From: Mimachlamys varia
Lineage: Eukaryota > Mollusca > Bivalvia > Pectinida > Pectinidae
Length of the DNA: 64,000 nt
NCBI GenBank assembly: GCA_947623455.1
Contig: OX392529.1
Coordinates: forward strand, 60,407,186 to 60,471,185
Direction of reading: 5' to 3'
The position numbers and the translations under genes are program-made. Shown here in pieces: positions 26,514 through 61,921 of the stretch. The number at the start of each line of letters is the position of its first letter. The first letter of the stretch is position 1. The notes under the pieces are model-generated. The model worked only from the letters and a program-made list of their open reading frames with translations. It was not told the origin of the DNA and did no database searches.

Positions 26514-26785
26514 GACTATGCGTGGTCGGGTGGTGCAGTGGATAGCGCACTTGCCTTTCACCAAGGTGGCCGGGGTTCGATTCCCTGACCGAACGTAAAA
26601 AAGTATGGGATTATCTGCCTGATAACGTGGGTTTTCTCCCGGTACTCCGGTTTCCTCCCACAATAAGACCCCCTCGCGCCGTACATCCGGGTGAACAAGA
26701 GTGATTAATATAAGTTTGACAACTTGTTTCATAATTGTTGTAAAATAAATCAAGTTTATATATATATCTTGTAAGACTATGCGTG
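26514..26785 (+). mobile_element. tRNA-derived SINE with 11-bp target-site duplication
   Basis: An 11-bp direct repeat, 'gactatgcgtg', flanks the element at 26514-26524 and 26775-26785. The body starts with a tRNA-like head: A-box 'tggtgcagtgg' at 26531 and B-box 'ggttcgattcc' at 26574-26584. A conserved central block follows ('gggttttctcccggtactcc', 'ggtttcctcccac'), resembling the central domain reported for molluscan MetaSINE-type elements (recalled, not checked). The tail has 'acttgtttcataattgttg' and ends in a TA-rich run. A second full member lies at 61600-61815. Confidence 0.9.
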
Positions 26786-32924: not shown

Positions 32925-34892
32925 AGAAAGCCGACCAGAACAGATTCTCGACACTCGGTTTCATCAACGCCACCGTTACCTCCTATCAGAGCAATGACAC
33001 CAAAGTCATCCAGAAGACGATCCCAGTCATCGGAACAGAAACAGACACCACGCACCGTCCTACCCCCAATAAAATCACAGGGTTCAATACAACGGGACTA
33101 CGACGATCAGTCACGTGATGGCATAACACCACCTCGTGATACAAGCAATTTTGACCCGGATGTTGGAGTTGGTGTCATGGTTGTCGGGAATGAGAGGTTG
33201 AAGAGCAACACTCCACCACCAACTCACACAGAAAGGAGACGGAAGTCGAGGTCGCCTAGTCCAAGGAGGAGATCAAGGTCACATTCTAGACGACGAAGTA
33301 ACGTAGATGTACACGTGATAAACCACGTGCGACATCACAGATCTGATTCGAGGGAAAGGAGAAAATCTGTTGACGAAAAACGGAGAAGGTCACACAGTAG
33401 ATCGCGAAGGCCAAAATCAAGATCAAGGTCCAGATCACGAAACAGGAACGTCATTATTCACAATGTTCGAGACAAGTCAAGATCAAGAAGTCGAACTAGG
33501 TCCCCTAAAAGGAGATCAAGGTCAAGGTCAAGGTCAAGATCCCGACGACGAAAATCCCGATCAAGATCCCGAGATGTACATGTCGTTATGGCACAGAGTC
33601 ATTCGAGAGGCAGAAAAAGTCGCTCTCGTTCTCGTGACAGACGAAGAAGTCACTCCAGAGGTCGTTCTAAGAATAGACATAGGCATAGAAGTCGGTCAAG
33701 GTCACGATCACGAGATAGGTCTCATTCACGATCAAAAGTAGTGGTAGTTGCTGCTCCCACTGAACGATCACGGCCAAGATCACGCTCAAGGACTCCAAAA
33801 CGTAAGTCAAGAAGCAGGTCTAAGAGCAAACATCATAGGTCTCACTCAAGATCACGTAAGAAGTCCCGGTCACGTTCAAGGTCAAGATCTCGTAGTTTAA
33901 GTGTTACGTTGGTTGCTGCTTCGTCGTCAAGAAGAGATCGTTCTAGGACGCCGGAGAAAAAACGGCGGAAGAGTCCAACACCTACGCGGTCTAGTAGACG
34001 ATCGAGTCCAAAGAAAAGTCGATCTCGAACACCGGAACGTCGGTCGAGAAAGTCAAGCAGGCGATCAAGTCCAAAGAAAAGTCGATCGCCAACCCCTAAA
34101 AGTCGATCTCGAACACCGGAACGTCAGTCGAAAAAGTCAAGCAGGCGATCAAGTCCAAAGAAAAGTCGATCGCCAACACCAAAAAGTCGATCTCGAACGC
34201 CTGAGCGAAAGAGTAAGACATCAAAACCTCCCCCGGCTGCACGTCCGGCTAAAACACGATCACCAGATATAGCCGTATCAGCAGCTACTGCAGTTGCTGC
34301 ATCTGCTAACAAAAGGTCACCAGAAAGAGAGTCAAGGAAATCAAGCAGGCGGTCTAGTCCCAAAAACAGATCGCCGACACCGCCAGATTCCCCCGATCCC
34401 AGGCGATCATCACCGAAAGAAAGCCCAAGAAAAAGTAAGACACCTAAACCATCTCCGGCCCCACCACCGGCAGCAAAACCTGCCAAGGCAGACTCTCCTG
34501 CTGGGCCGGTGAAGGCTGCTGTCGCGGCTGCTGCAGAAGCTGCACCTTCTCAGTCCCGCCCTCCATCAAAACGTCCACCGTCTGATAAAAAGGACGATGA
34601 TTTACCGGAGTCTTTATCGGGCAAATCTCCAAGCGATGTAGGCTCGCCTCCGCCTTCAACAAGCATGAAACAGACTCCTAAACCAAAGAAAGAGAAAGCA
34701 CCACCTAAAAAGAAAGAAAAGGACGACACGGAAAACATGATAGCACAACTTGACAAATTAACAGACTTTAACCTCAAAAACCTGGCAGGGAACGCCGGGG
34801 ACGAGGAAGCGCCCGAGGTAGACAAAAAATATCTTGACAAAATGAACGATCCAGATTTTCAGAAAAATCTTAATGCGTTTCTGTCTTCATAA
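32925..34892 (+). CDS. terminal exon of an arginine/serine-rich (RS) protein
   Basis: Encodes 655 residues and a TAA stop, opening after an acceptor at 32924. The frame is fixed by the long open reading frame and by phase-0 joins to earlier exons. The order is: a linker; from about 33230 an RS domain with long runs of RS/SR dipeptides; from about 34000 RSSPKKSRS(P/R)TPE repeats with an exact 84-bp (28-residue) duplication (34020, 34104, 34188); Ala/Pro/Lys-rich segments; then a lysine-rich stretch. A distinct C-terminus (MIAQLDKLTDFNLKNLAGNA ... LDKMNDPDFQKNLNAFLSS) could fold. RS domains are typical of splicing and mRNA-processing factors, but no RRM or other named domain is visible. Short hydrophobic islands (VGVGVMVV, VDVHVINHV, NVIIHNV, DVHVVM, KVVVVAA, SVTLVAA) interrupt the RS runs. 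The gene family is not identified. Confidence 0.88.
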   Translation, partial: RKPTRTDSRHSVSSTPPLPPIRAMTPKSSRRRSQSSEQKQTPRTVLPPIKSQGSIQRDYDDQSRDGITPPRDTSNFDPDVGVGVMVVGNERLKSNTPPPTHTERRRKSRSPSPRRRSRSHSRRRSNVDVHVINHVRHHRSDSRERRKSVDEKRRRSHSRSRRPKSRSRSRSRNRNVIIHNVRDKSRSRSRTRSPKRRSRSRSRSRSRRRKSRSRSRDVHVVMAQSHSRGRKSRSRSRDRRRSHSRGRSKNRHRHRSRSRSRSRDRSHSRSKVVVVAAPTERSRPRSRSRTPKRKSRSRSKSKHHRSHSRSRKKSRSRSRSRSRSLSVTLVAASSSRRDRSRTPEKKRRKSPTPTRSSRRSSPKKSRSRTPERRSRKSSRRSSPKKSRSPTPKSRSRTPERQSKKSSRRSSPKKSRSPTPKSRSRTPERKSKTSKPPPAARPAKTRSPDIAVSAATAVAASANKRSPERESRKSSRRSSPKNRSPTPPDSPDPRRSSPKESPRKSKTPKPSPAPPPAAKPAKADSPAGPVKAAVAAAAEAAPSQSRPPSKRPPSDKKDDDLPESLSGKSPSDVGSPPPSTSMKQTPKPKKEKAPPKKKEKDDTENMIAQLDKLTDFNLKNLAGNAGDEEAPEVDKKYLDKMNDPDFQKNLNAFLSS

Positions 34893-35309: not shown

Positions 35310-36304
35310 GTCCCCCGCTTCCGGAGGAACGGGGGATATTGATTTGGGTTTGTCCGTCCGTCCGTCCGTCCCTCCGTCCGTCCCTCTGTCTGTCTGTCAC
35401 ACTTCGTTTCCGTGCTCTATCTTTTGAAGGAATAATCCGATTTTCATTAAACTTGGTCAGGATACTTATCATCCAAGTACCTCGGATGAGTTCGATTTTC
35501 GTGAAATTCCGCGCATATTTTATGGAGTTATCCCCCTTTTATCACCAAATATAGGCATCATGTACAAAATGCCATAACTCTTATGTTTTTTATTTAATTC
35601 ACTTTAAATTCTGTAGAATATTATATAAGGTAATGATGTTTAACATATATTACGGGTTTGGATGTCGTATCTCAACTTTCTTTGGAATCCGACAGAGTTT
35701 TGTCCCTTTCATTGCCTCCCTCTGTCCGTCTGTCTGTCACACTTCGTTTCCGTGCTCTATCTTTTGAAGGAATAATCCGATTTTCATTAAACTTGGTCAG
35801 GATACTTATCATCCAAGTACCTCGGATGAGTTCGATTTTCGTGAAATTCCGCGCATATTTTATGGAGTTATCCCCCTTTTATCACCAAATATAGGCATCA
35901 TGTACAAAATGCCATAACTCTTATGTTTTTTATTTAATTCACTTTAAATTCTGTAGAATATTATATAAGGTAATGATGTTTAACATATATTACGGGTTTG
36001 GATGTCGTATCTCAACTTTCTTTGGAATCCGACAGAGTTTTGTCCCTTTCATTGCCAAATGAAAGCATTATGTACAAAAAATTGCTTTCCGTGCTCTATC
36101 TTTTGAAGGAATAATTCGATTTTCATCAAACTTGTTGAGGATACTTATTATTCAAGTATCTCGAATGAGTTCGATTTTCGTGAAATTCCGCGCGTATTTT
36201 ACGGAGTTATCCCCCTTTTTATCATGAAATATAGGCATCATGTACAAAATGCCAGAACTCTACGCACATGATGTTTCCCCCCAAGTGGCCCTGAAGCGGG
36301 GGAC
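35310..36304 (-). mobile_element. modular element with 12-bp TIR, 340-bp core repeats and GTCC tract
   Basis: Perfect terminal inverted repeat: GTCCCCCGCTTC (35310-35321) and GAAGCGGGGGAC (36293-36304). Next to the left end lies a hairpin, CCCCCGCTTCC against GGAACGGGGG, with one bulged base. A (GTCC)n tract follows (about 35348-35392). The core has about three copies of a 338-340-bp unit ('tttccgtgctctatc' at 35407, 35747 and 36085). The first two copies are almost identical and the third is diverged. Read on the minus strand, the order is terminus, core repeats, GGAC tract, hairpin, end, as in the elements at 44848 and 50043. No coding sequence. Confidence 0.85.
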
Positions 36305-36412
36305 ATAAATTCCACGAATTAGCTTGTTATATGTGTGATACAAACAATGGTCTAGACTAAAGGATTGAACTGTGAATATTTATTTTGAAAACAGATTATA
36401 AGATGCTTTTAC

Positions 36413-36530
36413 CTTTAGTGAGATTGCTGTTTTAACGGCACCTCGGTTATCTTTAGTGAGATTGCTATTTTCACGGTTACTCAATTATTTTTAGTGAGAT
36501 TGGTATTTTTACGGTTACTCGGTAAAGATT
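36413..36530. repeat. three-copy repeat of about 46 bp
   Basis: 'tttagtgagattgctatttt' plus 'cacggttactcgg' repeats three times with small changes. Confidence 0.75.
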
Positions 36531-36591
36531 TCGACGTAAATGAAAATGGCGGGAAAAAGTATTATGATATTGCTTTAGTATGTAACTGAGT

Positions 36592-37995
36592 GTTTTACAG
36601 TGTATATCATACTAATACAGTATATACCATACTAATACAGTGTATATCGTACTAATACAGTGTATATCGTACTAATACAGTGTATATCGTACTAATACAG
36701 TGTATACCATACTAATACAGTGTATATCGTACTAATACAGTGTATATCGTACTAATATAGTGTATATCGTACTAATACAGTGTATATCGTTCTAATACAG
36801 TGTATATCGTACTAATACAGTGTATATCGTACTAATACAGTGTATACCATACTAATACAGTGTATATCGTACTAATACAGTGTATATCGTACTAATACAG
36901 TGTATATCGTACTAATACAGTGTATACCATACTAATACAGTGTATATCGTACTAATACAGTGTATATCGTACTAATATAGTGTATATCGTACTAATACAG
37001 TGTATATCGTTCTAATACAGTGTATATCGTACTAATACAGTGTATATCGTACCAATACAGTGTATATCGTACTAATACAGTATATACCATACTAATACAG
37101 TGTATATCGTACTAATACAGTGTATACCATACTAATACAGTGTATATCGTACTAATACAGTGTATACCATACTAATACAGTGTATATCGTACTAATACAG
37201 TGTATACAATACTAATACAGTGTATATCGTACTAATACAGTGTATAACGTACTAATACAGTGTATATCGTACTAATACAGTGTATACCATACTAATACAG
37301 TGTATATCGTACTAATACAGTGTATATCGTACTAATACAGTGTATACCATACTAATACAGTGTATACCATACTAATACAGTGTATATCGTACTAATACAG
37401 TGTATATCGTACTAATATAGTGTATATCGTACTAATACAGTGTATTTCGTTCTAATACAGTGTATACCATACTAATACAGTGTATATCGTACTAATACAG
37501 TGTATACCATACTAATACAGTGTATATCGTACTAATACAGTGTATATCATACTAATACAGTGTATATCGTACTAATACAGTGTATACAATACTAATACAG
37601 TGTATATCGTACTAATACAGTGTATAACGTACTAATACAGTGTATATCGTACTAATATAGTGTATATCGTACTAATACAGTGTATACAATACTAATACAG
37701 TGTATATCGTACTAATACAGTGTATAACGTACTAATACAGTGTATATCGTACTAATACAGTGTATACCATACTAATACAGTGTATATCGTACTAATACAG
37801 TGTATATCGTACTAATACAGTGTATACCATACTAATACAGTGTATATCGTACTAATACAGTGTATATCGTACTAATACAGTGTATATCGTACTAATACAG
37901 TGTATATCGTACTAATACAGTGTATATCGTACTAATACAGTGTATTAGTACGAATACAGCATATACCATACTAATACAGTGTATATCATATTAAT
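36592..37995. repeat. 20-bp satellite, about 70 copies
   Basis: The unit is 'actaatacagtgtatatcgt', with variants ending 'taccat', 'tacaat' and 'taacgt'. The 20-bp step is almost perfect for 1.4 kb, so each 60-nt block shows three aligned copies. Variant units recur in similar order, which suggests segmental duplication within the array. It lies about 1.7 kb downstream of the RS gene stop. Confidence 0.97.
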
Positions 37996-40102
37996 AGGTA
38001 CATACATGTCTGTACAATAGTCATAATCATAGAATAGTGGCGAACTTTTAGTGCATAGAAATCTAGTGAAACATATTTCACGCATTACATATCGAAGTTG
38101 ATATTACTACAGAGTTGGAATTCCAGTACACGCAATACCTTTTTTTAATTCCAGTGTGACGAAACTACAGTATTACATGATGACGTCATAATAGGATTTG
38201 GTTTGTTGTAATCATATCACACGATTATGCTGTTTGTTGAACAATATCATCAATTAATATGTTTGTGCGATCACGAAAGAAATGTGAACATTCGTCCATT
38301 GCATGGAGAAACGAAATATGAGTTGACTTAAGTAGTAAGTATGAGAAATGCTTTATTGTTAATACGTATGTATTATAGATGTGTGGGTTCTACTCTATTT
38401 ATTATATCATAGAATTCAAAGATCTCAACCTGTCGCTATTCTAGTGTTTCCCGTAAGAAATACTTCAGTCGGTTAGATATTATTTACATGTATTTTATAT
38501 TTAAACAAAAATAAATATGGCCCTTTATGAAGATTTGAACTAGAAATAGAGGGAAGATGATGAAAAGCTGTTCGTTTATGCCTCATAATTTTATGACGTC
38601 ACAATAGGATATGTTACAAAAGTTGTAATTTTTACATGAATTGCCATTACACGTCAGTCTGAGTTCATGGGTGTATATGAGAAATATTAAAACTGTTCAT
38701 TTTAAATTTTTGTTGGGGTGGGGGGGGGGGGGGAGGGGGGGCTGTGTTATTTATTGATGTGACAGTTTTGAATATGTTGAACAAATATACCCTTGCACCT
38801 ATACGATACAATCAATATGATAATGACCACTGTTTATCTGCTGTGCCCAATGTCAGTATATGTTTATACTGATAGTTTTCACAAATCATTTGTCAGATTA
38901 TGGATTGATGAACTATTGAGTTTGAAATTGATAAAACCGTTCTTTTAAAATTTTAGTCCTAGTAAATATAGTGTTTGTTGATAGAGACACCACTGTGATA
39001 TAAGGTTTGGTTGTAGCTTTGTCAGTATTTATATCTAGTCTATGTACTCTAGTCAGTCGTTTTTATCTGGAGAGTGGTTGGCGGGGACAATATTTTCTGA
39101 TTCACTCAGTGAAACCTCTCCTGATTACAATAACCCAGTTTGGTGGGATAGTGTGAGATGTGCAGGGCACAATAGCTGAATTATTTTTCTATGTCTAAAA
39201 ACTATAGAGCGAAATACATATTTGCACTGCAAAATAAATAAGTCCTGTTTTAAGAGGAACAGTGACATTTTTGCATTCATATTTGTTATTATAAATATTT
39301 TTCGCGATTGATATGCATTGAAGAATGTATATGTGCACGTGCAAAATTAACATAGAATTGTTTATCATGTCATAATGACGTTTTTATGACGTCATATAAT
39401 TGTCTTGGAAGTGAAAATCGTACTGTCAAATTAGAAATTTGCCTCGTTTTTAAAGAAATTAATTTGAGAGTTTTGTTGTGTAATGAATTTATGTGAAAAT
39501 AGATCTTTCAGTCGTGTCAGGGTAATATGTAATTGATTAAACTCGTTAAATAATTCAATATGTCACTGGCATAAAAGCTCGTGACATATAAAATTATTGA
39601 AGTCGTTAAATAAATTCCATATTACATTGGGACTCATGTAAGATCCCTATTTATATATATATAGTGAATAACATAATTCCCTGTGTATCTTATGTCTTTA
39701 TAACATTACTAGGTCGAACTACGTTTTAATGACATTGACTGTCAGACCATTTAGATGGAATCTGTATCTAGTCCCGTAGACTAGCCTCGTAGTTTAGTCC
39801 CGGAGAATGATTGTTTCTGTTTTATTCCTGATATTAAGAAAAATTCTTTATTCCGACCCATTTTGTATGTAAGGATTCGACATAAGGCAACTTGGATGTT
39901 GTAACAAGTATTATCGACTACTGACAGTAGACCGAATATTAAGGGTTTATTACACTGTGAGAAAACGTTTATATTTTTTTATAAATGAAAAATAATTCAA
40001 AACAATAGTCTAATAATTATAAAGAAATTCTCGTCTATTCTTTTCACTTGTTGCTAACGCATACTACACATTAAGCATGCCATGGAAGAGTAGTGAGCTT
40101 TG
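37996..40102. other. intergenic sequence with G-rich tract and three TGACGTCA sites
   Basis: No gene was recognised. TGACGTCA palindromes (CRE-like) occur at 38181-38188, 38594-38601 and 39387-39394. A G run lies at about 38715-38741. Whether the CRE-like sites are functional cannot be judged. Confidence 0.45.
38715..38741 (+). repeat. poly-G tract with G-quadruplex potential
   Basis: A 27-nt stretch of almost only G, interrupted by a single T and a single A. It could form a G-quadruplex and is also error-prone in sequencing. Confidence 0.85.
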
Positions 40103-40567
40103 CTAAATGTTGAGCACCAAATCGTAGTCGTTTACGATCATAATCAAAGTATTGTGGCTGCCAGGCAGGTGTATAATTGCGTCCTGTACGAAAACGTACG
40201 AAAAGGAAATAATTTGTTGAAGATGAGCAGAAAATACATTTTTTTCCATCTGGAATAAGCTTGGTTGATATCTAGCCCGAGTTTCATCTTGCAACGACAC
40301 CCAACTAAGACATTGTGACAGATGGAGATGTCTGGTGTGGGGCCCCCCCAAACCAGACATGGTGTCGGGGCCAGAGGAAACTCGGACGTGTTAATACCGG
40401 TCAGGTGCACATGGAGACGCTTTTGGGTAAGTTGAGAATAAATATTTTTTCTGATCTTCAATCACAACCTTTTTCTTCAATAGAGTCAGCATGGAACTGC
40501 ACTAAACGTAAGAAAAGTTCATAGAGATCCCTTACACTAATTTGTTCTCTGTGTGCTCAACATTTAG
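40103..40567. mobile_element. 465-bp segment bounded by a 15-bp perfect inverted repeat
   Basis: CTAAATGTTGAGCAC at 40103-40117 and its exact complement GTGCTCAACATTTAG at 40553-40567. The inside is more GC-rich than its surroundings and contains a C run (40342-40349). No transposase is seen, so a MITE-like element is the simplest reading. An exon-like stretch with a donor (gtaagt at 40437) lies inside but has no partner. Confidence 0.5.
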
Positions 40568-41139
40568 TTTGGGTTGAGAACTGCCCAGTCGTGTCGCATG
40601 TTACACTCAAACGTTTACGGACTAAAATAGAATTGGGCTAATTAATCATGTTAATTCAACTGTTCTTTACATAATAAAGAGTTTGTTAAACTTAACAGGC
40701 ATTCGAGTTTGTTTTCTGTTTTTTTTTTTTTTATCTGGGCAGTCACCTTCAGCCTACCACTGTTTCACAGAGTACGTTCTACGGCTAACTAGTAAACCCA
40801 CTTAAACAGATTCATATCGATCTGGACACTTGTAATCTAGACACTTCACATACTTAGTACTTTTAAATGGTGGCTTTTTACATTTCAAGGTTACATGAAA
40901 ATTGTAACGCTAAAAAAAATGAATGCCAGAAATGTTTACTTTGGGCTCAAAAGGATCCCATACTCGTTTGGGCTCAAAAGACACTCATTTGGGCTCAAAA
41001 AGGATGCCATATTCGTTTCCATTTCATATTAAGTTATTAAACTCCAGCCGACTATTTCACGACACTGCCAAGCAAATGTGTCCATGGTGAAGCAAAAGCA
41101 CGAAGGAAAACGACCATACCAAATAACTCTATCATAAAT
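40568..41139. other. intergenic sequence with a short triplicated motif
   Basis: 'tttgggctcaaaa' occurs three times between about 40938 and 41000. Nothing else was recognised. Confidence 0.5.
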
Positions 41140-41215
41140 CAATCTCTTGTTCACCACTACTTGGGATCGAACCAAACTTCTTGGGAGAGCGACTCCCGGC
41201 TACCGAGGCACACAA
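41130..41215 (-). mobile_element. short tRNA-like SINE head
   Basis: The reverse complement reads 'gtgcctcggtagccgggagt', then 'tttggttcgatcccaag' (B-box-like) and 'gtggtgaacaagagattgat'. The last part resembles the 'gtgaacaagagtgatt' tail of the SINE at 26.5 kb, but the central domain is missing. This is a truncated or alternative SINE, not a functional tRNA, because no cloverleaf closes. Confidence 0.45.
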
Positions 41216-42739
41216 TCAGTTTCAGAATGTTTTCATCACTCTCATAGGAAATGAAAACTCAAGTAAGAACCTATTTATTTCTTATTTTGACGTCAAACAA
41301 GACTCTATCTTAAAATACAAGAGATTCAATTTGAAAAAGATACACAATTTAAAGTTATTTTGAATTTGTTTGACTGCCCCGTAAAACTGATGATCGGAAC
41401 ACGAACATATGATGAAAGTGTGAATCCTGAGTATAACGATGATATAAGCACGGGACCATTTCGTTACCTTTCTACATGTTTCTACATGTTGTCGCTATAG
41501 TACCGTAATCAGTTTATTCGAATATAATTACCGAGTGAATTAACTCGAATTAATCGGCATAAATTGGCCAAAACGACTACAACACACAACTCTATCGGCA
41601 TAAAACTTACACTTTATTGTGTCGCGGTTTTAAGACATGGACTGAAATCATTTTTTATGAACAATGTCTAATTACTCTTCTAAGAACTCAACTACACCCC
41701 GTTTCGCTCGATGCGTACATTTTTAGGGTTTTGAAGTTACCCTTCACGTTTTCACAACTTCCTACGCCACTGTTCGATTTCAATCAATATGACTATGACT
41801 AACACGTAACGATGATAAATATCTGAAACAATGTCAACAAAAACACCAGAAATGATAACTTAGCAACTCTGGGACAATTTAGCCAACGAACTATGGATTC
41901 ATGGAATCCTTCCCAAATTAGGTGGTAGAATCCACATCTCTCACTGCTATTAAAGGTCGCCTAAACAACCATTGGTAAAATGTACCGTTTAAGTTTTATC
42001 CTAGTTTTAATTTCAATGCACAACCGGACGGCAGTGAGTTGACAACACGAAACGCTACCGGATAAGCTTCCATTGGTTAACTATTGGTGTCTACCACAAG
42101 GTAACGTCCCGGATGTAAAGTGACACATATATGATTAAATGTGGAAGGCCCGAAAATAAAGTCAGCTCAACTAGTCAAAGAACATTTGAACAGATCTGAA
42201 ATAGCATGGCTTGGGACCGTATTTCCACATCATATCGATGTAAGCCAGGTAAGTGTACCGCCGGCCGATGTCGCGCTGTGGTGTATACCGTCCTCGGTAT
42301 TGATTGTCTCTAAGCAGACACACAATTGTCAGACTTCAATAAGCAAACAATTACAAAGGCCGTATAAAACTAGAATGTTCAATATTGGCCGGTTGTCATA
42401 GACTACTCAACTCCTGCTTCCAGGTGGAGGTTTACATAGCATGTGATCCGTGAAATATTGATGTGAATTTTTCAAATGTGTGTAGAAATTCAACCCGGGA
42501 ATGTAATAAAACGGCTGGCAAATATACGTTATTGATTACAAACAGTGTCAATGAAATACTCTCAATACATTTCGAGGACTTCTGTTTTGGAATTTGTTAT
42601 TGCACACGAGGTTCTAGAGGGAATTTCGGAAAATTTCATAAGATTACTTATGTCAGAGTTGTAATATGCATGTCAAACGATCTAATTTATTAAAGTTACC
42701 GTTTTCAAAACAATCGTTTTTAATTATCTTTCCATCCAC
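41216..42739. other. intergenic sequence with one weak exon candidate
   Basis: A plus-strand frame across about 42144-42248 (KSAQLVKEHLNRSEIAWLGT, then VFPHHIDVSQ) ends at a consensus donor CAG|gtaagt (42248/42249). No acceptor, start or partner exon could be assigned, so it is not called as a gene. Confidence 0.3.
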
Positions 42740-43000
42740 CCGGAGAAGTAGACATTAGTATGTTTGAGAATTTTGAAACATTGGTTAATTTTCCATTTGC
42801 GAACCACCCTGCCCCCTAAGGTCAGGGCAAAAACTCCATATCTACAATATTGTATCCTCATCTCCGAAGGATTATTCTGGACAAGTTTGAAAAAATTCCA
42901 TACACTGGTTATTGAGAAGTCAAAAATGTTTAAGCTTATGCACGACGGACGGCGCACGAAGACGGACGGAAAGCGACCATGTGATCGGAGTTAAACAATA
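42740..43000 (+). mobile_element. relic of a modular GGACG-type element
   Basis: One diverged monomer-like block ends 'ggttattgagaagtcaaaaa' and is followed by 'cgacggacggcgcacgaaga' and 'cggacggaaagcg'. The same junction of a 'ggttat..agaagt' monomer end followed by a CGGACG tract occurs in the elements at 44848 and 50043. Terminal hairpins are degraded. Confidence 0.55.
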
Positions 43001-43975
43001 TGATATTATGGAGCTAAGTTGGTCGGAATTAAACAAGGAGTCAAAAAAGTGAAGTTCACATGTTGTAGCCTTTTACAAATTAAACAAGCAGTCAACAGAC
43101 CAAAAGTCACAGGGTCAAAGAGGTCTAGGTCACCAATTCAAAGGTCAAGGAAAAAGTTTAACTTTTGAGAAGACAATTGATCAAAAGATAAAAATCAAAG
43201 AGTTTGACCATGATTCCAATGATTTCAATGTAAATACACAACAGCAAAAGTTGAGGGCTTCCTCTTACGACGTACGACTTCCTCTCAATACCAGAAGGTC
43301 AATGGTTCTAATATTTGGCCAGTAGCATGCAGGGATGAAAAGACTGTCTTGTTTGTCCAAATGAATCGCTTTCAAGGTCACACAAGATCAAATTTCTGAA
43401 AATCTGCAAGAAACTTTTAAATAACCAAAATGCGCAATGTATGTATTAATATTGGGTCTGTAACATGCTGGGACGAAGGGCTAATACATTTTTTCAAGTG
43501 AATCACCTTAACTCACTTTCAAAGTTTTGGTTTGCTCTTCTTTTCTTGTTCCCGCCTTTTTTCGACACTGTATTTGTGTCCGCTTTTGGGGCCCATTTAG
43601 GATATACACAGGCTTTCATTGCCTAGCGACGAGGGTCTGCACCATTGTTTTATGACTATTGTCTCTCATCTGTTGTCTGATGTAAAGGATTGGTGAGATT
43701 TGAAGCGATCTTCAATGCAGGTACACACCAGTACGCTTTCTACGTGACTGTCACTATCCAGCCTAAGGCTTTGATAACTACAGCTAACCAGTGTAAAACG
43801 ATGTACAACAGAGTCCACTTGTATGTCTGAAGTTATCCTTGACTAAGGGTAGGTTTGCTGACAGCTTTACTTGGAAGCAGAAATAAAGAGGAAGATAGCT
43901 ATTGAAGAAAAAATAGTGACATTGATATTGGTCGAACCAATGTGGTGATAAAATTAGAGAATGCCAAAATGTCAA
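43001..43975. other. intergenic sequence with 'aaggtca'-type remnants
   Basis: Scattered 'gtcaaaggtca'-like fragments (43090-43150) may be decayed core monomers of the same modular class. No gene was recognised. Confidence 0.4.
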
Positions 43976-44060
43976 CAAAACGATACTCCAAACTCAAAAT
44001 CGATTAAACTAGGGGGCAAAATATGAGCAAAGGAAATATTTACATGAAGAAACATAGACT
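43976..44060 (+). repeat. dispersed repeat family R1, copy 4
   Basis: 'ccaaactcaaaatcgattaa', then 'gggggcaaaatatgagcaaa' and 'ggaaatatttacatg', homologous to 15275-15345. Confidence 0.6.
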
Positions 44061-44254
44061 ATTTAGGCTACACTCTGCATGCGTTCTCATGTTTCTGGTA
44101 CTTGTCCATCCATAGTATCACAATGCAAGTATACTGGTATTCTTGCTGAGAATAGAACCTTCATGTATGTATTTCATGTATAACTTTACCGGTGACATTT
44201 TATTTTGTATATATTGTGATATGGACTAAGAGGTTTCTAGCCTGCGTCCATTAT

Positions 44255-44535
44255 TTTCCATTAAATGTATACTGGTATTCTTGCTGAGAATAGAACCGTA
44301 TACTGGTATTCTTGCTGAGAATAGAACCGTATACTGGTATTTTTGCGAGGAATAGAATTGTATAATGGTAATTTTGCTGAGAATAGAATTGTATACTGGT
44401 ATTTTTGCTGAGAATAGAATTGTATACTGGTATTTTTGCTGAGAATAGAATTGTATACTGGTATTTTTGCTGAGAATAGAACCATATACTGGTATTCTTT
44501 TTTTTCTTCTTGTTGAGAATGGAACCATCTACTGT
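44255..44535. repeat. 31-bp tandem array, about 9 copies
   Basis: The unit is 'gtatactggtatttttgctg' plus 'agaatagaacc' or '...attgt'. The last copies are diverged. A stray related copy lies at about 44130-44160. Confidence 0.9.
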
Positions 44536-44847
44536 ACTGGTATTCTCGTTGCTATTTACCTTCACCAGGAAATCAGTGAAATAAGTTTTTTGGTTTAGAG
44601 AATTGATCGTTTATTGTTCCTTCAGCACCTTGAATTAGGGCTGGGCGGTTTTACCAGTATACCGTCGTATAAAGTTGTGATGGTACATTAGTCCTGTACC
44701 GGTTTTTTGGGGACTTTCATTTAAATATCAATGAACTATTTGTTACATAGAATAATTGGAATTTCAATATGTTTTAATTGTAATTTCCTATACGTTTGCT
44801 GACTAGGTCAGCTTCACTCAAACAATATTAGAGTATAACACAAAGAG

Positions 44848-46982
44848 AACAAGAGGCCCAACGGGCCTTAACGGTCATCTGACTACCAATTGTAAAATCA
44901 CTATGAAAATACGTGTAGTCATTAAATCAAGTTATAATATGCCTGTATAGATTGCCAAGTTCAAGATAGTGGCCTTCTTGGATTTCTGATGGGCTTGAAA
45001 AATAACAACACTTTGTTGGGACCATCTCAGGATATCATTTCTGGCAAGTTTCAGCTCAATTCCCCTGGTAGAACTTGAGAAGTTTAGAATGTGTTTTCAA
45101 CAAACCCTTTTGGCCCCTGTGACCTTGAATGAATGTCAGGGTCATTTCTTTAAACAAACTTGACACACCTTTATCCCAGCATGCCACAAGCCCAATATCA
45201 CATCTCTGTGCCTTTTGGTTATTCAGAAAAAGTTGTTTTTAAAGATTTTGACCCTTTTGGCCCCTGTGACCTTGAATGAAGTTCAAGGTCATTTATTTGA
45301 ACAAACTTGGTAGACCTTTATCCCAGCATGTCACAGGCCTAATATCAGGTCTCTGAGCCTTTTAGTTATTCAGAAGAAGTTGTTTAAAGATTATGACCGT
45401 TTTGGCCTCTGTGACCTTGAATGAAGGTCAAGGTCATTTCTTTGAACAAACTTGGTAGCCCTTTATCCCAGCATGCCACAGGCCCAATATCAGGTCTCTG
45501 GGCCTTTTGGTTATTCAGAAGAAAATGTTTAAATATTATGACCGTTTTGGCCCCAGTGACCTTGAATGAAAGTCAAGGTCATTTCTTTGAACAAACTTGG
45601 TAGCCCTTTATCCCAGCATGCCACAGGCTCAATATCAGGTCTCTGGGCCTTTTGGTTATTCAGAAGAAGTTGTTTAAAGATTATGACCGTTTTGGTCCCT
45701 GTGACCTTGAATGAAAGTCAAGATCATTTCTTTGAACAAACGTGGTAGCCCTTTATCCCAGCATGCCACAGGCCCAATATCAGGTCTCTGGGCCTTTTGG
45801 TTATTCAGAAGAAGTTGTTTAAAGATTATGACCGTTTTGGCCCCTGTGACCTTGAATGAAAGTCAAGGTCATTTCTTTGAACAAACTTGGTAGCCCTTTA
45901 TCCCAGCATGCCACAGGCCCAATATTAGGTATCTGGGCCTTTTGGTTATTCAGAAGAAAATGTTTAAAGATTATGACCGTTTTGGCCCCAGTGACCTTGA
46001 ATGAAAGTCAAGGTCATTTCTTTGAACAAACTTGGTAGCCCTTTATCCCAGCATGCCACAGGCACAATATTAGATCTCTGGGCCTTTTGGTTATTCAGAA
46101 GAAAATGTTTAAAGATTATGACCGTTTTGGCCCCAGTGACCTTGAATGAAGGTCAAGGTCATTTGTTTGAACAAACTTGGTACCCCTTTATCCCAGCATA
46201 ACACAGGCCCAATATCAGGTCTCTGGGCCTTTTGGTTATTCAGAAGAAGTCGTTCAAAGATTTTGACCTTTTTGGCCCCTGTGACCTTGAATGAAGGTCA
46301 AGGTCATTTGTTTGAACAAACTTGGTAGCCCTTTATCCCAGCATGCCACAGGCCCAATATTAGGTCTCTGGGCCTTTTGGTTATTCAGAAGAAGTCGTTT
46401 AAAAATTATGACCGTTTTGTCCCCTGTGACCTTGAATGAAGGTCAAGGTCATTTCTTTGAACAAACTTGGTAGACCTTTATCTCAGCATAACACAGGACC
46501 AATATCAGGTCTCTAGGCCTTTTGGTTATTCAGAAGAAGTTGTTTAAAAAGATTTTGACCTTTTCGGCCCCTGTGACCTTGAATGAAGGTCAAGGTCATT
46601 TGTTTGAACAAACTTGGTACCCCTTCATCCCAGCATGGCACAAGCCCAATATTTGGTCTATGGGCCTTTTGGTTATTCAGAAGAAGTCGTTCAAAGATTT
46701 TGACCTTTTTGGCCCCTGTGACCTTGAATGAAGGTCAAGGTCATTTGTTTGAACAAACTTGGTACCCCTTCATCCCAGCATGGCACAAGCCCAATATTGG
46801 GTCTATGGGCCTTTTGGTTTATGAGAAGAAGATGTTTAAATGGAAAAGTTTACGGACGGCACACGGCGCACGGCGCACGACGCACGACGCACGGCGCACG
46901 ACGACGGACGAAGCATGATGACTATAGGTCATCCTGACCCTTCGGGTCAGATGACTTAAAAACTTATAACAGGCCTCTTGTT
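44848..46982 (+). mobile_element. modular element with 145-bp core repeats, GGACG-type tract and terminal hairpins
   Basis: An 11-bp perfect TIR: AACAAGAGGCC (44848-44858) and GGCCTCTTGTT (46972-46982). Near the left end there is a hairpin AGGCCC-AAC-GGGCCT, then GTCATCTGAC (44874-44883). The core holds about 12 monomers of 145 bp ('gtgaccttgaatgaaggtca', 'ttatcccagcatgccacagg', 'gggccttttggttattcaga'). A 'cggacggcacacggcgcacg'-type tract follows (46851-46912). The right end has a hairpin, GTCATCCTGACCC / GGGTCAGATGAC (46928-46955), whose last arm is the exact complement of 44874-44883. No coding capacity; the 60-residue frames in each monomer are period artefacts. Confidence 0.88.
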
Positions 46983-49040
46983 GATTGGCTTCAGAACAAA
47001 AAACAGCCAGAGACCTTTAACTAGCTCAGATATTCAATCAAAGTGATATGTACTGCAGTATTTGCCTAAAAACTATGGTATATCATTGTACCTAGGTAGC
47101 TGTGTACAGTACCCTAGAGATTTATGGAAAAAAAGACCAATGCCTGAGAATTGTCAACACAGAGATTTTACCGTACACTGCATAGATGTAAATGTACACA
47201 TTTTTGTAAATTGTATATCATTTCCAATTCATAAAAAAGACTATGAAGTGTATACACTGATGTATCCTATGTATGGCACTTGTGTGGAAACCATGGTTAC
47301 CACATCAAAAATTACCGAAAAATGCAAAATATCACTGTTTTTGACACAAAATTTGACCTATGCAGATAGGAATTTTTTTCTTAAGTTCTATCTAAAATGA
47401 AAGCTTACTTCATTGGTTGCAGAAATATATCTGTTCCAGCATAGGTCGTACGCTTAGATTTTTCGCTATTTTCCCTCAGGTGCTGTTGTCGAAATTTCAC
47501 TTCCGGTAAAGCTAGCTTTTCATTTGTAGACACCCATTTCGGAAAGGTCAAAATTTTAATCTCTTACCAAAATTTTTTTTTTCTCTTTTTACAAATGTGA
47601 AGTCCACAAAGTCCACTTTATCATGCTTAAGCCAATTTTACTCCTTATTTTTTTTTTTAGATTTTCATAGGCATGCTATTATAGGGGTTATTCATTGTAC
47701 AAAAATATCACCCATGGCCACAAAAGCCTTCTGTACACTGCTACCCTACCACAGTATTTACCTAAATACTATGGTATACCGTGGTACGTAGCGCAGTAAT
47801 TGCCTAAATATCGTGGTACTTTTGAGTTTGTGGTACCATGCTCTACCTTGAATGAACAACACAAACACTTAAACAATGTAACAACTATCATTTTATTACT
47901 GTCAGATCTTAGTAGTGACATTTGTCAAACATTAACAGTTGTACTTTTGGATAATAATTAATACCCGTCCAGCATCATTATCCCATCTATAAGAAATTAT
48001 ACAGTGAACTGGATATTCAAGGTCATTCAAATATATTAGTTAGACCACCTTCTGTTTTGACCTTGACCACAAAGTGACCTTGACATTGTGTACAGCCCTT
48101 CAGCCTCGACCATAGCAATGGTTGCAAACATATGTAGCTGATGCTGTGTAGAATAATTTCTACAGATATGATCATATTTAACAGCCACTTAAGGAGGATA
48201 CACATCAATGTGACATGCACCTCCCTCAAAGAAGAGTTCTTAACATTTAACCAATGAAACATATCTCTCTGTGATATATGTATAAGGGTTGATGATATAT
48301 CAGAAAGTTACACAAGAATTGATTTTTTTGGTAACATTCCTATAAGCTATGCAAGCTTACTCTGTCTTTATCACAAGTGTAATGAAAATGTAGCACAAAT
48401 TTAACTTCATGTGGACAAAAAAAAATGTTCAGATTGATCTGGAACTAGAATACAACCAAATCTAGCTGAGAGTAGGGATCCCAGGGGGATAGTTACTGAA
48501 AGCTCAACAAAATATGTCTAGTTTATTTCCCAAAACTTCCAAGCTAAATTATGATATCTAAATGGAATCCAAACAATTCTTTAAAAAAGAAACACTTATT
48601 TTAGGTTTTTTTCTTTTGTAAAATTTCAAATATTATTTTGAATTCATTTGCTGAATTTTTGTGCTAATAACCAATACTGTGATCTGGTCTCTTTGAATCT
48701 ACCACTGCAGCTGAAAACTAGCAAGGTAAACAACAAAATACATTTCAAGACAGGCTAGTGAATTTAGAGGTTTTAATCTTCATCTATAGCAGTTGCTTAC
48801 CTGAATCATCAAGTTTAAGTGTGGTAGATGTTTGATTTTGTTACAGTCTAGTCGGAACTTTTCAAGGTTTGAAATAACGGAGAATACTGTAATTAACATT
48901 TAATGTATTTACGAAGGACAAACAACTTTCATTTGTGTTTGTACAAAATAATTATAAAAAATTTCAGACACATACATTTTGTAATCTGAATACAACCTAT
49001 ACACACAGTTTATTACATTGTACTAGGATAACTGACCGAC
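46983..49040. other. intergenic sequence with a few short internal repeats
   Basis: 'cagtatttrcctaaa.actatggtata' occurs at 47057-47083 and 47751-47776, with a third weaker copy at 47793. A 112-codon frame (47062-47400) lies between them but has no ATG at its start and no recognisable family. No gene is called. Confidence 0.45.
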
Positions 49041-49265
49041 ACTCAGATCTGGAAATATTAATTACATCAGATTGTGTAATCAGATCTGGGAATATTAATT
49101 ACATCAGATTATGTAATCAGATCTGGGAATATCAATTACATCAGATTATGTAATCAGATCTGGAAATATTAATTACATCAGATTATGTAATCAGATCTGG
49201 GAATATCAATTACATCAGATTATGTAATCAGATCTGGAAATATTAATTACATCAGATTGTGTAAT
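49041..49265. repeat. 37-bp tandem array, 6 copies
   Basis: The unit is 'cagatctgggaatattaatt' plus 'acatcagattatgtaat', with anchors at 49044, 49081 and every 37 bp. Copies differ at only a few positions. Confidence 0.92.
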
Positions 49266-50040
49266 AATGGATTAACCTTGTGCACCAATACGAAACACGT
49301 AACTATACCTCCTTCACTCCTGAATTTTCAAAATGAACTTTTCTAACCTTAGAACAGGGAAAGTTCAATGTGTCGTCAGGGGTGAATGAGTTGATGATTG
49401 AAAACACGTTTATAATACTTGGGTGTTTACCATGCAGAGCAAATTATATATCTACAGAAGCTTCAAAGACGTATCAACAAACAATCATATTAACAGTTTT
49501 ATTTTACTTATCTCGAGTTTTGATTACAAAGATAATAATTTGGTTTTGATTTTAAAGTTATATTTTAAGAAGATGATAGAATAAAATATGATTGTCTGTA
49601 GATACTTCAGGATAGAATATCAAGAAATGAGATTTTACCTACAGCTTGAAATTAACTAATATCAGATTTTATAGTAAAATATCTGGGTTTTGTGTTTATA
49701 ATTAACTCCCGCTTCTGACCTAAGATTGTTAGATTAATTCATTCACCCCTCAAACACATTTGAGTCCTTCCAATTTAACAACTGGAATAGTTCATTATCA
49801 AAATTCAGGGGTGAACGAGTTAACCAACAATCCAGGAACATGTGTAAGAAAAATCTGTTATCCTGGTCAGTGCCTCAAAAATATTACCTTGGTATTCATC
49901 AAAAGCCATGGACATTATTTTACTTTTCAAATCTTACTGCAAATTTTAAACTGTTCATACATTATTTACAAAAGTCAAGTGTTTGTACATGCATCATGTA
50001 ATACACATCTCAGAAAAATTTATCAAAATGAAAAAAAACG
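49266..50040. other. intergenic sequence, nothing recognised
   Basis: Phrases such as 'ggggtgaatgag' / 'ggggtgaacgag' occur twice (about 49380 and 49808). No gene was seen. Confidence 0.4.
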
Positions 50041-50042
50041 AG

Positions 50043-51122
50043 AGGCCCAGAGGGCCTGTATCGCTCACCTGGATACATTCGTATCTAGGTAATCATGATA
50101 AAATATTTTCTTTTTGGCTTGCCCCTTAGCCCCTAGGGAGTCAGTCCCACCATGAGTACAATTTTGAATCCTGAGCACCTGGGGATGCTTCCTGCCAAAT
50201 AAGGCTGATTTCCGATCAATGGTTATGGAGAAGAAGTCGATTAAACCAATATAGCTAAATAACCCTTTTTGGCCCCGCTCCTCAGCCCCCTAGGGGGTCA
50301 GTCCCTCCATTAGTACAATTTTGAATCCTGGGCACCTAAGGATGCTTCCTCCAAAATAAGGTTGATTACCAATCAGTGGTTTTGAAGAAGAAGTCGCTAA
50401 TATCAATATAGCTACATAATTTTCTATGGACCCCACCCCTCAGCCCCCTAGGGGGTCAGTCCAACGATGAGTACAATTTTGAATCCTGAGTACCTAGGAA
50501 TACTTTCTGCCAAATAAGGCTGATTTCCAATCAGTGGTTATGGAGAAGAAGGCGCTTATATCAATATAGCTAAGTAATTCTTTTTAGCCCCGCCCTCAGC
50601 CCCCTGGGGGGTCAATCCCACCATGAGTACAATTTTGAATCCTGAGCACCTAGGGATGCTTCCTGCCAAATAAGGCTTATTTCCAATCAATGGTTATGGA
50701 GAAGAAGTCGATTAAACCAATATAACAAAATAACCCTTTTTAGCCGTGTCCCTCAGCCCCCTAGGGGGCCAGTCCCACCATGAGTACAATTTTGATTCCT
50801 GAGCACCTAGGGATGCTTCCTGCCAAATAAGGCTGATTTCCAATCAGTGGTTATGGAGAAGAAGTCGCTAATATCAATATAGCTAAATAACCCCTTTTGG
50901 CCCCGCCCCTCAGCCCCCTAGGGGGTCAGTCCCACCATTAGTACAATTTTGAATTATGGGCACCCAAGGATGCTTCCTGCCAAATTAGACTGATTTCCTA
51001 TCAGTGGTTATGGAGAAGAAGTCGTTTAAAAAATTGTTGACGGACGACGAACGGACGACAGATGGACGACGGACGCCACGGTATGGCATAAGCTCACCTC
51101 GGTTCTTCAGACCAGGTGAGCT
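50043..51122 (+). mobile_element. modular element with 157-bp core repeats, GGACG tract and terminal hairpins
   Basis: The left end has a hairpin AGGCCC-AGA-GGGCCT (50043-50057), followed by GCTCACCTGG (50063-50072). Six core monomers of about 157 bp follow ('cccctagggggtcagtccca', 'ttgaatcctgagcacctagg', 'ggttatggagaagaagtcg'), with anchors at 50141, 50298, 50456, 50612, 50769 and 50926. A tract 'gacggacgacgaacggacga' lies at 51039-51078. The right end is a hairpin AGCTCACCT (51091-51099) / AGGTGAGCT (51114-51122). CCAGGTGAGC (51112-51121) is the exact complement of 50063-50072. No coding capacity. Confidence 0.86.
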
Positions 51123-51277: not shown

Positions 51278-52168
51278 CAAACACTATCAACTGTGGTAGC
51301 ACTATACCTATCCTACATCCCTGCTACAGCTGATGTTACTATCAACTGTGGTAGCACTATACCTATCCTACATCCCTGCTACAGCTGATGTTACTATCAA
51401 CTGTGGTAGCACTATACCTATCCTACATCCCTGCTACAGCTGATGTTACTATCAACTGTGGTAGCACTATACCTATCCTACATCCCTGCTACAGCTGATG
51501 TTACTATCAACTGTGGTAGCACTATACCTATCCTACATCCCTGCTACAGCTGATGTTACTATCAACTGTGGTAGCACTATACCTATCCTACATCCCTGCT
51601 ACAGCTGATGTTACTATCAACTGTGGCAGCACTATACCTATCCTACATCCCTACTACAGCTGATGTTACTATCAACTGTGGTAGCACTATACCTATCCTA
51701 CATCCCTGCTACAGCTGTTGTTAATATCAACTGCGGTAGCACTATACCTATCCTACATCCCTGCTACAGCTGATGTTACTATCAACTGTGGTAGCACTAT
51801 ACCTATCCTACATCCCTGCTACAGCTGATGTTACTATCAACTGTGGTAGCACTATACCTATCCTACATCCCTGCTACAGCTGATGTTACTATCAACTGTG
51901 GTAGCACTATACCTATCCTACATCCCTGCTACAGCTGATGTTACTATCAACTGTGGTAGCACTATACCTATCCTACATCCCTGCTACAGCTGATGTTACT
52001 ATCAACTGTGGTAGCACTATACCTATCCTACATCCCTGCTACAGCTGATGTTACTATCAACTGTGGTAGCACTATACCTATCCTACATCCCTGCTACAGC
52101 TGATGTTTCTATCAACTGTGGTAGCACTATACCTATCCTACATCCCTGCTACAGCTGATGTTACTAAG
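51278..52168. repeat. 55-bp tandem array, about 16 copies, highly uniform
   Basis: The unit is 'actatcaactgtggtagcac', 'tatacctatcctacatccct', 'gctacagctgatgtt', with an exact 55-bp step. Only a handful of substitutions are seen in about 890 bp, so the expansion is recent or actively homogenised. Confidence 0.97.
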
Positions 52169-56308: not shown

Positions 56309-57631
56309 TCAAACTATTTCGATCTCCTCTGCAGGTACTACTGGCTGTGAACACTGAGTATTGTTTTCCTGAACATCTATCTGAATGTCTGGACTAGTTA
56401 AGGGCAGGGTCTTATTGGATTCAGTCCCCTCTTCGTCTTCATTTGTCAGAGTGGTCGACAAGGAACCTTCGCCGTTTGTAAGAGATTCTATGACAGGGTT
56501 GTCTCCCTTCTCCATCGGGGGATGAATGTATTGCTCAAGGTGACTAAGTCTTGGGGGTAAACTCATCCTGTTCCAATCCTGCCTTCTAAAAGTTGGACTG
56601 TTGTCATCTGTCGAGGCTTGATCAGAAAACTCGAGAGTCAGGAGCTCCACCTGGTCATCATCCAGCATAGGTCCAGTGCTGGCAATGCTTTCAGTGTCAG
56701 ACCCATCCTCGCCATCTACGTTACCAGGGGTGAGGAATGACCCTTGACGACTTGGAGAGTTGGACATAGAGTTCTCTCTCCATGTTTTCTCCGTTGGACT
56801 ACCAAATGGATTATGTTTTGGAAATTCCACACTCCGTTGAACTTTTGATTGGTCTTTTGACAGTCTTCGTCGCTGACCTCTCCTAGTTGGTTGAATTTCT
56901 GTTGCCTGATATCGTTGAGTTAAAGGGTCCATGGCAGCGTCGATCTTCAATATCAGGCCACCTTGGAGTTTCCGTCGTCTGCCTGTGGGTGAGGATTGAG
57001 ATCGCGCTCGTTGATCCTGTAATAGTTCTTGCCTGTCTGCGTAATCACTTGGGGAAGACGATAATAGTGAGCTAGTGAAGTCTTTGGGTATACTAGATTC
57101 TCGTGACAAACTCCGCCGTAGTGGTGCGGCATTCTGACCCTGTGTTGTCCGACTATTTGGCAGTGCTCTATATTCATCATCAAATGTCGGCACAGGAAAA
57201 TCATCTCCGCCACCCTCTGTCTGACTTATACGCCTTTCTATGGCTTCCCTGTAGCTGGGATTACGAGACTTATCTAGATTCTGATGTATGACAGACGGGA
57301 GAGTATAGTCAATATCCTCGTGTGATCTAAAGTTTGAATGTTTGGCATGACTAGAAGTGGTTGTTGCCTGAGACATGGCCTGGCAGCAGCTCAGGTGACT
57401 TGACCCCTGACCTTCCACAGAGTTCATGCCCTTGTCACGGTTGGGTGGGGGCGACGGAGATTCAGAGCCCACCCCCGCCTCCCGAACACCGAGCTCCTGC
57501 TGTTTTCGCTTCTCCTGTCGCTGAAGATGGATGTCGTCACTGATGAGCTCCAGATTTTTCAGAGCGTCGGAGTATGCAGACTTAGCTGATGATACGTCCT
57601 CTTCTAAGATATGAATACTTCTCTTCTGATC
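56309..57631 (-). CDS. SH3BP5: SH3BP5 (Sab)-like protein, terminal exon
   Basis: The minus-strand exon starts at 57631 after an acceptor (atgttttcag) and encodes 440 residues to a TGA at 56309-56311. The first 40 residues continue the coiled-coil domain of the SH3BP5 family: LEEDVSSAKSAYSDALKNLE then LISDDIHLQRQ, matching the family's 'ALKNLEMISDEIH' signature. Members are Rab11 guanine-nucleotide exchange factors, and mammalian Sab also docks JNK at mitochondria (family knowledge). The remaining 400 residues are low-complexity and serine-rich, with SPSPPP, RRSLSRESS, PTRRGQRRRLS and RRRKLQGGLILKI (a basic stretch followed by L-x-L, resembling a MAP-kinase docking motif; inference). The tail is longer than I recall for vertebrate SH3BP5. 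The gene converges on the RS gene. Confidence 0.88.
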   Translation of the reverse strand, partial: DQKRSIHILEEDVSSAKSAYSDALKNLELISDDIHLQRQEKRKQQELGVREAGVGSESPSPPPNRDKGMNSVEGQGSSHLSCCQAMSQATTTSSHAKHSNFRSHEDIDYTLPSVIHQNLDKSRNPSYREAIERRISQTEGGGDDFPVPTFDDEYRALPNSRTTQGQNAAPLRRSLSRESSIPKDFTSSLLSSSPSDYADRQELLQDQRARSQSSPTGRRRKLQGGLILKIDAAMDPLTQRYQATEIQPTRRGQRRRLSKDQSKVQRSVEFPKHNPFGSPTEKTWRENSMSNSPSRQGSFLTPGNVDGEDGSDTESIASTGPMLDDDQVELLTLEFSDQASTDDNSPTFRRQDWNRMSLPPRLSHLEQYIHPPMEKGDNPVIESLTNGEGSLSTTLTNEDEEGTESNKTLPLTSPDIQIDVQENNTQCSQPVVPAEEIEIV

Positions 57632-57879
57632 CTGAAAACATATTTTTTCTTTGAATACAAGTTTAACTAAAAAGTTATATGATGTAACCAATCATCAATC
57701 CCTGTACCCTTCCTAATACCATTGTCGCTTTAATCAAACTCCCATATGTTACACTTCTTAAACCAGATGTTCTCATGCCTTACGCGTAATTATAGGTCTT
57801 GCCTTTCCCGCTTTGTCGATAACGTTTAAGTCTAAATGGAAAAATTAATAAAATGATTGACAAAATACATACAGCAAGA

Positions 57880-61815: not shown

Positions 61816-61921
61816 AACACAGCTATTTCTATACCAATATATAATAGAAGATATGTAATTTTATATACATATTTGCATCATCAATATATAATCATTAAAA
61901 TGGTAATGTGAAATAGAATGA

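Follow-up and report, generated by a model that had tools for sequence, protein, structure and literature searches.

We analyzed a stretch of 64,000 nucleotides from the bivalve Mimachlamys varia (assembly GCA_947623455.1, contig OX392529.1, positions 60,407,186 to 60,471,185), which we call the window; coordinates below are those of the window. It contains three repeats with tandem cores, which we call E1, E2, and E3 (Table 1). Very probably, these belong to three families of HINEs, which are non-coding Helentrons that move by rolling-circle transposition (peel-and-paste) and are mobilized by the Rep/helicase of a putative autonomous Helentron. All three repeats have the anatomy of a HINE: a 5' subterminal inverted repeat (subTIR) with a local inverted repeat, a microsatellite tract, a satellite-like core, a 3' subTIR, and a 3' palindrome. 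This entire end anatomy can be seen directly, and the end sequences are unlike between families but matched inside each one. There is no open reading frame (ORF) of at least 150 amino acids inside E1, E2, or E3. There is also no Rfam match inside them at the gathering threshold (the sole match in the window is a tRNA at 26524-26595, with 31.8 bits versus a gathering threshold of 29).

A preliminary description of this sequence had reported tandem cores of 340, 145, and 157 bp, as well as an end hairpin in each element with one arm that recurs, exactly inverted, near the opposite end. We confirmed the cores, and the hairpins and the inverted arms are present in all three elements. The inverted motifs are exact over 12 bp in E1 (35310-35321 and 36293-36304) and over 10 bp in E2 (46946-46955 and 44874-44883) and in E3 (51112-51121 and 50063-50072). 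The distance from the 3' copy to the end of the element is 24 bases in E1 and 26 in both E2 and E3. Each element was also said to have a GGAC(G)-rich tract; this is correct for E1 (GTCC) and E3 (GTCGTCC-type), but the tract in E2 is CGCACGG-type, not GGACG. Two other points needed correction. First, the 5' and 3' ends had been swapped. Because the hairpin that adjoins the GTCC or GTCG tract is the 5' end in HINE anatomy (PMC7492417, PMC4067079), E1 is on the + strand and E2 and E3 are on the - strand. Second, E1 does not stop at 36304 but extends to 36328, with a 3' palindrome and terminal sequence that had been overlooked.

Table 1. Features of the three probable HINEs in the window
Element	Feature	Start	End	Strand	Sequence or detail
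E1	Complete HINE copy	35310	36328	+	
E1	5' subTIR and local inverted repeat	35310	35337	+	subTIR GTCCCCCGCTTC; imperfect hairpin, GGA tip, one bulged base
E1	GTCC microsatellite tract	35352	35398	+	
E1	Central tandem repeats	35388	36261	+	340 bp, 2.6 copies
E1	3' subTIR	36293	36304	+	GAAGCGGGGGAC
E1	3' palindrome and terminal sequence	36308	36328	+	palindrome AATTCcacGAATT; terminal AGCTTGTT
E2	HINE copy	44848	46955	-	5' end at high coordinate; boundary from kinship, not from an empty site
E2	5' subTIR and local inverted repeat	46928	46955	-	subTIR GTCATCTGAC; hairpin, GAA tip, one bulged base
E2	CG-rich microsatellite tract	46856	46907	-	7-bp units, CGCACGG-type
E2	Central tandem repeats	45104	46840	-	145 bp, 12 copies
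E2	3' subTIR	44874	44883	-	GTCAGATGAC
E2	3' palindrome and terminal sequence	44848	44868	-	palindrome AGGCCCgttGGGCCT; terminal CTTGTT
E2	Inverted copy of HINE 3' end, outside the 5' subTIR	46972	46982	-	AACAAGAGGCC; left out of the element
E3	HINE copy	50037	51121	-	5' end at high coordinate; boundary from kinship and flanks of related copies
E3	5' subTIR and local inverted repeat	51092	51121	-	subTIR GCTCACCTGG; hairpin, one bulged base
E3	GTCGTCC-type microsatellite tract	51039	51075	-	
E3	Central tandem repeats	50110	51030	-	157 bp, 5.9 copies
E3	3' subTIR	50063	50072	-	CCAGGTGAGC
E3	3' palindrome and terminal sequence	50037	50057	-	palindrome AGGCCCtctGGGCCT; terminal CTCGTT

We asked how often such ends would arise by chance. 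Among 1,500 random pairs of 160-base stretches from the window, 72 pairs had an inverted match of at least 10 bases and 8 had one of at least 12 bases. Since matches of 10 bases or more are not rare in this repeat-rich window, a lone inverted pair proves little. A strict rule, which combines a 3' palindrome, CTYGTT, a 10-base subTIR, and a local 5' hairpin, is more selective. In 264 kb of sequence (the 64-kb window plus 200 kb, sampled as twenty 10-kb stretches of contig C1), it found four places: E1, E2, E3, and a copy in the sampled stretch L026. In contrast, it found one place in 20 dinucleotide-shuffled sets of equal size and none in the reversed sequence. Because we composed the rule after seeing the elements in the window, and already knew of L026, this comparison gauges rarity and is not a blind test. 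The full end anatomy of E1-E3 is not due to chance.

Less stringent scans were not useful. A rule with an 8-base subTIR was unspecific (10 real places versus 14-49 across five shuffles). A scan for a 10-base subTIR and a local hairpin, ignoring the 3' palindrome, gave 64 merged candidates versus 45 in the mirror control and is useless alone. A relaxed scan for 3' ends led to an AT-rich place in L012 that we took for chance. Similarly, the sequence pattern for HINE 3' ends matched 2 contigs in IMG/VR, which we judged to be chance because no 5' partner of HINE form was seen.

Other copies show where the elements begin and end. The 12-base subTIR motif of E1 has 236 exact matches on one strand of the 975.3-Mb genome (71 contigs) and 223 on the other, versus 11 and 15 for the same motif read backwards. 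(Both ends of each copy are counted.) For the E1 family, we read 19 ends of each kind (5' and 3'), from the motif-search loci, from places among the matches listed, and from the window; five loci with a single motif (L043-L047) were left out of this count. As the copies were picked by their exact end motifs, they are uninformative about variation in the motif. The 5' flank ends in TT in all 19 cases, and the 3' end is CTTGT followed by T in 18 of the 19, with a mixed base after that (6 T, 5 A, 5 C, and 3 G). Furthermore, L042 is a natural empty site, in which one E1 copy lies inside another. The inner copy is preceded at its 5' end by TTATTTAATT and followed at its 3' end by CACTTTAAATTC. These two sequences are contiguous in the intact E1 core (at 35600 and 35940 in the window), so the insertion was exact, and nothing was duplicated beyond possibly TT. 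As for the single-motif loci, L046 is a copy of E1 whose 3' end is intact but whose 5' subTIR has been lost, L043 and L047 have other surroundings that are common to both, and L044 and L045 looked like chance matches.

The count of TT insertions is for the E1 family only, and the 5' flanks of E2 and E3 are T-rich. The 5' boundaries (marked by a slash) are TT/GTCC for E1, TTTTTAA/GTC for E2, and TTTTTTA/GCTC for E3, and the 3' ends are CTTGTT or CTCGTT.

To the 20 stretches of contig C1 we added three more (L052, L053, and L054). The sample from C1 includes a complete copy of the E3 family (L026), another E3-family copy that runs off the end of its stretch (L028, completed by L048), an element with an E3 subTIR and an E2-like core (L029), and an E2-type element (L011, completed by L049). 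L029 and the other sampled copies imply that similar ends can carry different cores, as has been reported for group 2 of the oyster HINEs (PMC7492417). In L049, at 1480-1600, there is a head-to-tail junction: by eye, an E3-type 5' end begins immediately after a degraded 3' end of a HINE (AGGCCCATTGTGCCTCTTGTT). L052 (C2:20000001-20010000) has seven HINE-like ends of four types within 10 kb. Three of these are 5' ends, two of E3 type and one, decayed, of E1 type; the other four are the 5' and 3' ends of two more elements, the short element E4 (ATGCCCCC...GGGGGCAT) and E5 (TGTCGCCTG...CAGGCGACA). For the E3-family 5' end in L052 that has a core, an exact 3' subTIR was not found. The scans that we used on L052 found no HINE-like ends in L053 or L054.

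The window might hold part of another HINE as well. The sequence at 42940-42995 is likely to be a 5' remnant; its subTIR is different, it has a GTCC tract, and 29 bp of it match the region of the E2 tract at 93%; we found no partner 3' end. Tandem arrays lie near two of the elements: an array with 20-bp units (36596-37996) begins 268 bases beyond the end of E1, and one with 55-bp units (51283-52166) begins 162 bases beyond the end of E3. Also, TCAAGGTCA, which resembles a nuclear-receptor half-site, occurs 22 times (counting both strands) in the E2 region (44848-46984, or 2,137 bases) and 10 times in the remaining 59,725 bases of the window, with no copies in E1 or E3.

We examined whether the sequences at the two ends of each element change together. 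Over nine aligned bases, the subTIRs of E2 and E3 (GTCATCTGA and CTCACCTGG) have 3 differences, and by eye, all 3 are mirrored in the 3' copy. We also swapped the ends of the five families. A family's own ends match at 10, 10, 10, 8, and 9 of 10 bases, while swapped ends match at an average of 6.45 bases (maximum 8). Of the 120 assignments, the true pairing of 5' and 3' ends is the best. (This comparison is not blind: matching ends were the reason why E1-E3 were reported, and they also helped to draw attention to E4 and E5.) Among copies that were found by likeness and not by matching ends, L026, L028/L048, and L029 match at 10/10 bases and L011/L049 at 9/10. These results bear out the preliminary description's claim of a common modular architecture in which end-to-end pairing is preserved despite changes in sequence. 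The outcome that would have counted against that claim, a single family with a common terminal inverted repeat (TIR) and random decay, was not seen among the copies read.

The end design is not new. The ends of Helitron2 and Helentron elements are already defined by paired subTIRs together with a hairpin at the 5' end and a palindrome at the 3' end. Compensatory changes have been published as well, both for the paired ends (PMC3627910, in which Bao and Jurka marked compensatory mutations in two Culex elements) and for the 3' stem (PMC2374699). In DINE-1, the subTIR varies between species, and a single 3' mismatch is footnoted for one species (PMC2374699, Table 1). The matching end motifs are a hallmark of the Helentron group, and E1-E3 are ordinary in kind. 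The preliminary description was right that they resemble oyster pearl-type elements and non-autonomous Helitrons, and its interpretation as a whole is partly supported.

We also considered how the ends might fold. The 5' hairpins of E1, E2, and E3 have z scores of -3.8, -4.35, and -4.23. The 3' palindromes have perfect arms of 5, 6, and 6 bp and loops of 3 bases. The predicted duplex between the two subTIRs is stronger than the local hairpin in all six end sets (from three families) that we compared, by 0.5-6.5 kcal/mol, with the cost of closing the loop excluded. Among the 10 5' hairpins that we folded, 9 have at least one single-base bulge in the predicted fold (one of these has two), or by family 4 of 5; there was no control to separate a bulge that is kept from plain decay. 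A three-base loop is present in 5 of the 10 (GAA twice, GGA once, and AAA twice), and the other five loops have 4-10 bases.

Nicking by a Rep/helicase, peeling of one strand, and joining of the ends are carried over to HINEs by their kinship with Helitrons. On this basis, transposition would begin when an HUH nuclease recognizes the 5' hairpin and cuts the T-T step that adjoins the 5' end. One strand would then be peeled away by the helicase, as for Helraiser. Once it is single-stranded, the 3' subTIR might anneal to the 5' subTIR (as in the model of Bao and Jurka), which would melt the weaker 5' hairpin and unite the ends, while the 3' palindrome could mark the point at which to stop. Finally, the joined strand would be inserted at a new T-T step; insertion at such a step is shown for the E1 family, where nothing is duplicated beyond an ambiguous TT. 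For Helraiser, joined circles have been reported, as well as a 3' hairpin that acts as a terminator (PMC5876387). For Helitron2, Bao and Jurka proposed that, when the 5' and 3' asymmetric TIRs (ATIRs) pair, the 5' hairpin is undone and the end point is fixed (PMC3627910). Our predicted energies favor this direction.

Several observations do not sit well with rolling-circle HINEs or with this mechanism. The 3' ends fold weakly at best, with z scores of 0.03, -2.38, and -1.39 for E1, E2, and E3, and the best fold of the 3' end of E1 does not include its palindrome. In 4 of the 6 end sets, the advantage of the duplex is small (0.5-1.7 kcal/mol), and when the ends of E2 are linked and folded, end pairing is ahead by just 0.2 kcal/mol (-9.4 vs. 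-9.2). The 5' hairpin of E5 (in L052) is perfect, which led us to drop the idea that all such hairpins share the bulge. GTCC...CTTG is flanked by TT on each side in 18 of the 19 E1 ends, and likewise in the nested copy; this is compatible with a 2-base duplication. And the simple model does not account for AACAAGAGGCC, the additional, inverted 3'-end copy that lies beyond the 5' subTIR in E2.

This extra copy is part of an 11-bp outer inverted repeat around E2 (AACAAGAGGCC...GGCCTCTTGTT), and the spacing is almost equal: outward from the subTIR, AACAAGAGGCC is 16 bases away at the 5' end, and its counterpart is 15 bases away at the 3' end. The E2 family might bear true outer TIRs as well, as a two-ended variant whose 5' end was copied from a 3' end. 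A related copy, L011, also has CTGTTATA and CAAGA in its 5' flank (by eye). However, the likeness to L011 is short, and four other E3-type copies have no shared upstream sequence past TTA (by eye). HINEs can also directly adjoin each other, as in L049, so the outer motif may be the remnant of another element. We consider a two-ended variant to be unlikely.

Another explanation is that E1-E3 are similar to miniature inverted-repeat transposable elements (MITEs) and move by cut-and-paste, with a 2-base target duplication of TT. A DDE transposase would bind the paired motifs as inverted repeats, with the hairpins as by-products. This explanation gained slight weight because the TT on both sides of the 18 E1 ends and of the nested copy is what a TT duplication would also give. 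The outer inverted repeat of E2 also fits, and both Pearl and DINE-1 were formerly classed as MITEs (PMC7492417, PMC2374699). But the 3' motifs of all three elements are clearly subterminal, and the outer repeat of E2 is the sole exception that we saw. Furthermore, HINEs are marked by CTYGTT after the palindrome, by a microsatellite tract, and by a tandem core, and such ends are linked to Rep/helicase elements in other animals (PMC4067079). We view cut-and-paste transposition as very improbable. It is even harder to believe that the pairing acts in RNA, for example by folding HINE transcripts so as to protect or process them. Pairing of the motifs is conceivable in either nucleic acid, and sequence alone cannot tell RNA from DNA here, but the elements have no ORF of at least 150 amino acids and no Rfam match, and the motifs lie at the insertion boundaries, as signals for DNA transposition would.

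Returning to HINEs, the bulges suggest a more specific idea. The 5' hairpin could be a built-in switch, kept imperfect through a bulged base and often with a small purine loop, that stays folded for the transposase until the matching 3' subTIR displaces it. We think that this is doubtful. A bulged base would tilt the balance toward end pairing, which we offer as a lead and not as a result, and the bulged 5' hairpin in 4 of 5 families is perhaps new. Alternatively, the imperfect hairpin may just be the partial or interrupted repeat named in PMC2374699. There are parallels elsewhere: TnpA-REP of E. coli, an HUH enzyme of another group, requires a bulged hairpin (PMC8266576); GNA loops give very stable DNA mini-hairpins (PMC4686876); and the ends of Helitron2 in Fusarium have GAA between the arms of the stem (PMC5148889). 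In our data, GNA tips are a weak mark of these hairpins. They were present in 3 of 9 hairpins with a stem of 5 and a loop of 3 near a GTCC-type tract (two of them from E2 alone), versus 14 of 300 overall. Among the 20 of 25 matches listed when we searched the literature for Helitrons or Helentrons with GNA, triloops, or GAA loops, the only item with both Helitron and GNA was a paper on a plant lectin. Two E3 terms were not matched among the 10 of 81 rows listed.

Among the closest known systems are the Cg_HINE elements of the oyster Crassostrea gigas (Vojvoda Zeljko 2020, PMC7492417). Like E1-E3, these have a 5' subTIR with a complementary inverted repeat, a GTCY or GTCC tract in the left flank, a satellite-like tandem core, a 3' subTIR and palindrome, an oligo-T target, and many dispersed copies. 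Their core units average 140-180 bp, which includes E2 and E3 (145 and 157 bp) but not E1 (340 bp). In the oyster, 10 autonomous elements could not be related to the HINEs (PMC7492417), and autonomous elements were not detected in another study (PMC7992393). DINE-1 of Drosophila (Yang and Barbash 2008, PMC2374699) has different sequences from E1-E3, but it too has subTIRs that differ between species and yet match at both ends. It also has a partial inverted repeat beside the 5' subTIR, a GTCY tract, central repeats, a 3' stem-loop, and a TT target.

Helitron2 (Bao and Jurka 2013, PMC3627910) shares the asymmetric TIRs, the 5' hairpin that contains the 5' ATIR, the 3' hairpin, and the compensatory changes. 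It differs in that some elements have a RepHel gene, and the target in Chlamydomonas is TTTT and then T or C, while here it is a TT flank. The HINEs and Helentrons of mites and mosquitoes (Thomas 2014, PMC4067079) share the subTIRs, the 3' palindrome, and the preference for TT; these have an autonomous partner with the same ends, and the mite subTIRs are themselves palindromic, unlike those of E1-E3. Canonical Helitrons (Helitron1 or Helraiser, PMC5876387) have a 3' hairpin that can serve as a stop signal and abundant non-autonomous copies. In contrast to them, E1-E3 lack the 5' TC and the 3' CTRR, and have paired ends and a 5' hairpin.

Elsewhere in the window, an ORF at 32994-34892 would encode a protein with abundant Ser-Arg repeats, for which Pfam gave no match at 0.001, and an ORF at 56309-57691 has a match to the final portion of the SH3BP5 profile (PF05276, E = 9e-10). 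There are also long tandem arrays at 16270-21906 (49-bp units) and 61917-64000 (56-bp units).

Overall, three unlabelled repeats can be assigned to a known group of transposons, and we have added a natural empty site and a comparison of swapped end pairings. If it is true that the bulge is kept across many families, then the published switch between the 5' hairpin and end pairing in Helitron2 and Helentron elements would become testable by changing bases.

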